Both the position numbers and the translations under genes were made by a program. Positions 366 to 1,264 of a stretch of DNA of 44,577 bases are shown one piece after another. Within the stretch, counting starts at the first letter, position 1; each line of letters opens with the position of its first letter. The notes under the pieces were generated by a model. The model did no database searches and had not been told where the DNA came from. It saw only the letters and a program-made list of their open reading frames with translations. Source of the stretch: a virus; IMG/VR virus record IMGVR_UViG_3300008107_000144, positions 1 to 44,577 of that record; one strand, written 5' to 3'.

Positions 366-373
366 TATAAATA
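366..373 (+). promoter_or_regulatory. putative T4-type late promoter (TATAAATA)
   Basis: This is an exact TATAAATA just after the upstream stop codon. T4-like phages use this box, with gp55 and gp33, for late transcription. A start near 379 would give an RNA that includes the left arm of the 384-471 inverted repeat and the terminator at 412. Confidence 0.5.
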
Positions 374-411
374 AAAGTGTCTGTTTGGACTGCAATCTCT
401 ACGGACAGATT

Positions 412-434
412 AGGTGCTCTTCGTAGCACCTTTT
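412..434 (+). terminator. intrinsic terminator
   Basis: AGGTGCT at 412-418 pairs with AGCACCT at 425-431 across a CTTCGT loop and is followed by a short T run. It should stop transcription coming from the genes at the left edge before the endonuclease gene. Confidence 0.7.
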
Positions 435-448
435 CTATTATGAAGATG

Positions 449-456
449 CATAAATA
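449..456 (+). promoter_or_regulatory. late promoter (CATAAATA) inside the inverted repeat
   Basis: CATAAATA fits the cyanophage late motif NATAAATA. Transcription would start near 462, inside the right arm of the inverted repeat. The late RNA would therefore lack the left arm and the terminator, leaving the downstream start codon at 482 accessible. Confidence 0.6.
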
Positions 457-481
457 ATAATGCAGTCCAAATAGAATAGAA

Positions 482-1264
482 ATGGAAACTTCAAAAGAGT
501 ATTACTATACCTATTATTCTTATGAAGAATGGGGTAGAGGATATATTGGTAGTAGAGGATGCGAATGTTTACCCGAAGAAGATGTAAAGTATTTTGGTTC
601 ATTCAAAGACAAATCATTTAAACCAACACAAAAGATTATTCTTGAAATTTATGAAACGAGAGAACAAGCAATTGAAGCAGAAGTAATATTGCACGATTTT
701 TATGATGTAGCAAATAATCCTCATTTTGCAAATAGAGCAAAACAAACTTCTACAAAGTTTTATATTTCAAAAGAAATAGCAAAGGTAAATGGGAGAAAAG
801 TAGGAAAAACATATGGAAAAATGGGTGGTGCTATTAGTGGAAAACTGAATTATGAAAAAGGCATAGGTATTCACGCACAAACACCAGAAGAAAGAGCAGA
901 ACTAGTAAAAATGGGTGGACAAAAGGTAAAAGAACTTGGATTGGGTATTCACGCACTCACAACAGAACAACGAAGAGAAATTGGTAAAAAATCAAGTGAA
1001 ACTAATAAAAAAAATGGAACTGGTTTATATGGAATGACCTTTGAACAAAGAAGTAGAAATAGCAAAAAAACAAAAGAACTTGGTGTTGGAATATTTTCTA
1101 TGACTGCTGATGAATTGAGTGAAGCAGGTAAAAAGGGCAATAAAAAAACCAACGCACAAAGATGGGAATGTAATGTAACTGGATATGTAACTAATGCTGG
1201 GGCACTTACAAAATACCAAAGGGCAAGGGGAATAGATACTTCCAAAAGAAAAAGAATATCATAA
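482..1264 (+). CDS. GIY-YIG-like homing endonuclease with NUMOD3-type repeats
   Basis: A 260-aa protein. Residues about 7-90 contain the block YSYEEWGRGYIGSRG and a following alpha/beta region, as in GIY-YIG-type phage endonucleases; the first motif is degenerate. Residues about 100-225 carry four or five repeats of the form KELGxGIHxLTxEQR with GKK or SKK spacers, which resemble NUMOD3 DNA-binding segments. The basic C-terminus contains GALTKYQRARGIDTS, a typical tail of these proteins. Such enzymes cut an intronless or empty site in related phages and spread by repair. No intron boundaries were seen, so it appears free-standing. Expression is probably late, from the box at 449. Confidence 0.8.
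   Translation: METSKEYYYTYYSYEEWGRGYIGSRGCECLPEEDVKYFGSFKDKSFKPTQKIILEIYETREQAIEAEVILHDFYDVANNPHFANRAKQTSTKFYISKEIAKVNGRKVGKTYGKMGGAISGKLNYEKGIGIHAQTPEERAELVKMGGQKVKELGLGIHALTTEQRREIGKKSSETNKKNGTGLYGMTFEQRSRNSKKTKELGVGIFSMTADELSEAGKKGNKKTNAQRWECNVTGYVTNAGALTKYQRARGIDTSKRKRIS

Follow-up and report, generated by a model that had tools for sequence, protein, structure and literature searches.

A putative mobile antisense-RNA control cassette travelling with homing-endonuclease genes of T4-like cyanophages

Introduction

Why should a free-standing homing-endonuclease gene be preceded by an inverted repeat whose arms enclose both a terminator and a late promoter? The question is raised by an IMG/VR fragment of 44,577 bases, called the window here, which comes from a T4-like cyanophage (it encodes the baseplate proteins gp6 and gp8 and a terminase). 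Cis hairpins in which late promoters are embedded are known to restrain the endonucleases of T4 (PMC2988022; PMC3014915). According to a 2010 review of post-transcriptional control in T4, the function of small trans-acting RNAs had not been characterised for any example from this phage, and genomes related to T4 might suggest candidates (PMC3014915). We describe here the layout of the locus, its relatives and the RNAs that it is predicted to encode.

Layout of the locus

The features of the locus are the following.

366..373, + strand: P1, a T4/cyanophage-type late promoter TATAAATA, with a predicted +1 at 379
379..436, + strand: predicted small antisense RNA of ~58 nt, a 5′ stem-loop followed by an intrinsic terminator (two-hairpin MFE fold)
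379..406, + strand: 5′ stem-loop of the small RNA, with 379–384 paired with 401–406 and a 16-nt loop containing most of arm1
380..394, + strand: arm1, the antisense sequence TCTGTTTGGACTGCA, which covaries with arm2 across 67 types
412..436, + strand: intrinsic terminator AGGTGCT-CTTCGT-AGCACCT (hairpin 412–431), then TTTTCT
449..456, + strand: P2, a late promoter CATAAATA, with a predicted +1 at 462
461..475, + strand: arm2 TGCAGTCCAAATAGA, with which the endonuclease mRNA begins (at 462), with a sharp onset of pairing at the predicted +1
462..481, + strand: mRNA leader of 20 nt, without a Shine–Dalgarno sequence
482..1264, + strand: free-standing homing-endonuclease gene of 260 aa with its ATG at 482 (phrog_314)

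In T4 late promoters the start usually lies five bases after the hexamer, and the starts at 379 and 462 are predicted from this spacing. P1 and P2 both fit the T4-like (gp55-type) late promoter NATAAATA, which is the cyanophage late promoter consensus (PMC2984593), at a fixed distance from the predicted start. The sequence TATAAATA occurs only twice within the 44.6-kb window, at positions 366 and 44517. The endonuclease reading frame matches the phrog_314 homing endonucleases (E value of 2.7e-8); it has no Pfam match, and its GIY-YIG-like N-terminus YYYTYYSYEEWGRGYIGSR, its YYTYYS...GYIGSR motif and its NUMOD-like repeats were recognized by eye.

The initial annotation had reported an 11-bp perfect inverted repeat enclosing a terminator and a late promoter, and this description holds: TTTGGACTGCA (384–394) and TGCAGTCCAAA (461–471) are perfect complements, the pairing extends to 380–394/461–475 with 14 of 15 positions paired, and the terminator hairpin with its TTTTCT tract and P2 both lie between the arms. 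A lone repeat of this kind is only mildly unusual: whole-window shuffles give ~2.6 chance matches of 11 bp at such spacings, and when the local 200 bp were shuffled 1000 times, five of the shuffles contained one or more. We accept it as real because relatives keep the layout with different, mutually complementary arms.

Conservation of the layout and pairing of the arms

Eighteen loci encoding relatives of the window endonuclease were selected by protein only. Read individually, all 18 contain in order a late promoter, an arm, a terminator, a second late promoter, a complementary arm and an ATG; the arms differ from those of the window in nearly all of them, and the longest perfect complements measure 6 to 14 nt. 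A string scan for the terminator and P2, blind to arms and protein, returned 115 stretches, and 73 distinct terminator–P2 sites were compared. The longest perfect complement between a site's own arms reaches at least 8 nt in 59 of these 73 sites, compared with ~5% of swapped pairs. On reading the remaining 14, we found the same pairing with one G–U in 12 and a mismatch in L139; the last, L141, stands before a gene that has decayed. Arms of 9 nt or more are present at 56 sites, picked without regard to P1, and every one of these has TAAATA at set distances upstream of arm1, against a background of 1.3%.

A scan of all fetched loci yielded 207 elements, compared with three in a reversed-sequence control. 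Removal of duplicate contigs left 158 non-redundant elements, most of them in cyanophage metagenome contigs. Detection of these bulk-analysed elements presupposed TAAATA and arms that complement each other; only the 18-locus and 73-site samples are free of this requirement. A terminator-like hairpin is present in 157 of the 158 elements. At P2, TAAATA is preceded by TA (giving TATAAATA) in 152; at P1 the two preceding bases vary (AA, AC, GA or TA). For each of the two RNAs, the base predicted to come first is a purine in 154 of the 158 elements. Single-element blastn is a poor detector of elements. One MAFFT alignment of all types misaligns the arms, and pair statistics were taken instead from direct register-based scripts.

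The 158 elements fall into 67 arm types with pervasive compensatory change. The comparison of arms among related insertions that the initial annotation had proposed thus revealed the compensatory changes in question, as expected for arms under base-pairing selection. Watson–Crick pairing across the 67 types is 98–100% at mRNA positions +1 to +4, ~95% at +5 to +7 and 83% at +10, compared with 30% at −2; the 79% at −1 mostly reflects an invariant T. The mean duplex energy is −21.0 kcal/mol for own arms and −8.8 kcal/mol for crossed arms, a difference that is partly selected by construction. Complementarity begins sharply at the predicted transcription start, which points to RNA–RNA rather than DNA pairing.

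The downstream genes bear on the same issue. The elements precede at least six endonuclease families: sorted on their N-terminal motifs, a grouping that HMM matches back up for representatives, the downstream reading frames comprise four groups with GIY-YIG-like N-termini (131 elements), two HNH groups (16), five others, most with nuclease-like family matches, and six that are truncated or decayed. Among the 27 recurrent arm types, 16 are found before more than one family, and since arm type crosses endonuclease families in this way we do not regard the arms as protein binding sites. It is true that I-TevI represses itself through an operator over its late promoter (PMC2988022) and that the cassettes are mobile, so that the arms might be imagined as DNA operators or recombination sites, for instance binding sites of the endonuclease. 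We consider this extremely improbable given the independence of arm type from family, the halt of complementarity at the predicted start and the existence of G–U intermediates.

How arms change can be followed at one insertion site, of which L116 and L117 are alleles with homologous flanks on both sides and endonuclease genes that are 97.6% identical. Their arm pairs differ and each is internally matched (ACCTGTAAGTCGCA/TGCGACTTACAG in one and ACCTGTGTGGTTCGCA/TGCGAACCATCACAG in the other); both arms have been replaced in concert. More limited changes occur as well, such as GTCGCA/TGCGAC versus GTCGTA/TACGAC. As a separate observation, the mismatched site (L139:323-470) is chimeric, with the small RNA of one type and the leader of another before an HNH-type gene, as if it had recombined at the conserved terminator/P2 segment.

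Structure of the predicted RNAs

P1 and the terminator together define a separate predicted small RNA, whose covarying 5′ stem-loop contains the left arm; its loop complements ~12 nt at the start of the predicted endonuclease mRNA. The window RNA (379–437) folds as this stem-loop and the terminator, with an MFE of −23.1 kcal/mol (z −4.45), and the predicted small RNAs of relatives have the same two-hairpin fold. The pairs of the 5′ stem covary over 104 unique 5′ regions (at position 3, CG 72 and TA 27; at position 5, GC 50, GT 14, TA 14 and AT 12). This stem makes a second helix, independent of the one formed by the arms. By their compensatory changes, two RNA-level pairings, that of the arms and that of the 5′ stem, show selection, and both are placed at predicted transcript ends. 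A match to a known RNA family or a group I intron remnant was considered and rejected: Rfam matched only two tRNAs in the window and nothing at E ≤ 1 within 300–1320, and an apparently ‘conserved’ core, GACTGCAATCTCTACGG, turned out to represent just one of the many arm types.

An RNA that reads through the terminator (379–500) would instead form a 15-position long hairpin (MFE −38.5 kcal/mol, z −5.0). According to the initial annotation, such read-through RNA hides the translation start; the hairpin can indeed fold, but its helix stops at 475, 6 nt before the AUG at 482, which is unpaired in the MFE fold, so that plain sequestration of the start codon does not describe it. The same annotation had late RNA lacking the left arm. 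This suits the mRNA predicted from P2, which starts at the right arm, but P1 had been missed. The late start that P1 predicts, at 379, falls before the left arm and before 384, where the annotation itself had counted a late start as refuting. That late RNA simply lacks the left arm is not supported.

Could a switch acting in cis suffice? RNA entering from upstream would then fold arm1 onto arm2 and be poorly translated, the RNA from P2 alone would be translated and the small RNA would be a by-product. The great stability of the read-through hairpin suits such a switch, and this is how T4 I-TevI, I-TevII, I-TevIII and segB and Aeh1 mobE work (PMC2988022; PMC3014915). Like the cassette, these systems belong to a homing endonuclease and have a late promoter embedded in a long-range hairpin, and RNA that initiates upstream is structured (PMC2988022); the initial comparison with I-TevI was apt as logic (PMC2988022). 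However, I-TevI/mobE-type hairpins cover the ribosome-binding site, whereas the cassette hairpin leaves the AUG free, and the cassette contains three further parts: an additional late promoter upstream, a terminator and the distinct stem-loop of the small RNA. A switch acting only in cis leaves unexplained P1 at its fixed distance before arm1 (56/56), the near-constant terminator (157/158) and the separate covarying 5′ stem around the left arm, and we regard it as unlikely. The two-state hairpin of the initial annotation is thus partly supported, as only part of the story.

Mobility, carriers and a second architecture

In L266 the two genes that flank the cassette in the window are directly adjacent, without it. 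S-PM2 was dropped as the empty-site reference, its next gene being different, and L266 was used instead. Among the elements, upstream conservation drops right at P1, earlier positions carrying little information. From this conservation edge and the empty site, P1, the small RNA, P2 and the endonuclease appear to move as one unit. A sigma70-type promoter (TTGAAC-17-TATAAT) lies directly 3′ of the endonuclease gene at 1294–1322 of the window and is absent from the L266 empty site; insertion may bring this promoter with it, restoring expression of the downstream genes.

Elements occur in cultured isolates: S-SRM01 carries seven and B23 three, all with different arms, and the marine isolate S-B68 carries one further element. 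The element scan found no copy of the module in the S-PM2 genome, and no module lies upstream of the homologues in S-N03, ACG-2014f, RN05-S, Sf-CH5, S-H68, VBP47 and Acinetobacter SH-Ab 15599. Within one genome, cross-pairing between elements was observed seven times against 16.2 expected (P = 0.024) and identical arms twice against 7.4 expected (P = 0.12). Such a depletion of cross-pairing is what a trans regulator would lead one to expect and is only suggestive here; strict within-genome orthogonality, when tested, was not retained for this reason; that orthogonality is selected for is plausible, though not proven. The exceptions to the pattern of pairing and diversity are one contig with two elements of the same type (G004) and the mismatched L139 element.

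In a second architecture, antisense loop and terminator are combined in a single hairpin (TGGGC...GTAAGTCCCATTTTT), which again complements the 5′ leader of an mRNA that encodes an endonuclease and follows TATAAATA. It is found at L216:18161 (S-SRM01), at L155:~733-830 (S-B05) and in contigs L278, L279 and L280. It may also be noted that for another S-SRM01 gene (L152:1170-1871; QPX48040.1) the annotated GTG start falls inside the small RNA, and that the conserved start is the ATG at 1227.

Proposed mechanism and comparison with known systems

We think it likely that the element is a mobile antisense-sRNA control cassette which travels with the homing-endonuclease genes of T4-like cyanophages and is functionally like the RNA-OUT/RNA-IN pair of IS10. 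What can be read from the sequences themselves is the architecture, the pairing and its boundary at the predicted start, the covariation of both helices, the association with endonucleases and the paired swapping of arms; we infer from these the production of the small RNA from P1, its action in trans and its repressive effect, the ends and stability of the RNA being predicted. P1 would give a small RNA of ~55–60 nt whose 5′ stem-loop presents the antisense sequence ahead of an intrinsic terminator, and P2 an endonuclease mRNA whose first ~10–13 nt complement the loop. The leaders of the elements contain no SD-like sequence, and in the relatives the ATG sits 17–25 nt from the mRNA +1. The small RNA would therefore pair with the 5′ end of an SD-less leader of ~20 nt, inside the ribosome footprint, where it would block loading and lower translation. 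RNA arriving from upstream, or reading through the terminator, would contain arm1 as well as arm2, form the cis hairpin and so be silenced too; this is probably an added layer.

The timing counts against this scheme to some extent, since both promoters are of the late class and antisense and target would be made together, for a purpose that is not obvious. Predicted late co-expression of the two RNAs would suit an activator, a small RNA that stabilises the mRNA by protecting its 5′ end from RNases or that aids translation, and so would a pairing that covers the extreme 5′ end from +1 and an unpaired start codon. Yet with leaders of 17–25 nt a duplex from +1 to +13 falls inside the 30S footprint, and the known controls of phage endonucleases are repressive (PMC2988022). 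We therefore give activation little credence and retain repression by an antisense RNA.

The closest functional analogue of the cassette would be RNA-OUT of IS10/Tn10, a short trans-acting RNA antisense to the 5′ end and translation start region of the transposase mRNA, RNA-IN (PMC5006887). Both complement the mRNA of a mobile enzyme near its translation start (in the cassette +1 to ~+13, the AUG lying 17–25 nt from +1). RNA-OUT is, however, transcribed from the strand opposite its target, which it overlaps and matches over 35 nt, whereas the cassette RNA is encoded on the same strand, in tandem upstream, and matches the mRNA 5′ end through 8–14 nt of its loop; the cassette also differs in its phage late promoters and its dozens of specificities. 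ColE1 RNAI and hok/sok exemplify stem-loop antisense RNAs encoded opposite their targets, with loop-first pairing and incompatibility-like specificity groups. The stem-loop, the loop-initiated pairing and the diversified specificity recall the cassette, whose RNA is instead encoded in tandem upstream. Finally, CfrI of S-PM2 is also a non-coding RNA tied to a homing endonuclease in a T4-like cyanophage, but unlike the cassette RNA it is ~225 nt long and runs on the opposite strand across psbA and F-CphI (PMC2984593).

More tentatively, the arm types may be interchangeable specificity groups (incompatibility or immunity groups) among homing elements: a resident small RNA would silence endonucleases of the same leader type, from its own genome or from a co-infecting phage, and new types would be favoured. 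If so, this would explain the 67 types, the concerted replacement of both arms at one site, the sharing of types across unrelated endonucleases and the near-absence of identical types per genome. We found no published description of the cassette in the open-access literature; its more than 60 matched loop and leader versions point to an unreported control system for mobile endonuclease genes. It would be a widespread candidate small RNA of the kind that genomes related to T4 might suggest, with more than 150 instances and cultured carriers, and would reveal how selfish endonucleases of unrelated families are restrained. Its many apparently orthogonal loop/leader pairs would also form a natural set for studies of RNA pairing and for synthetic regulators.

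Elsewhere in the window, the non-coding segment 13333–13671 holds seven exact copies of TTTTCCACA, on both strands, out of eight in the window against 1.2 expected. This sequence matches the cyanobacterial DnaA-box consensus, and the segment may be a site of DnaA binding, or one resembling oriC, in a T4-like phage.
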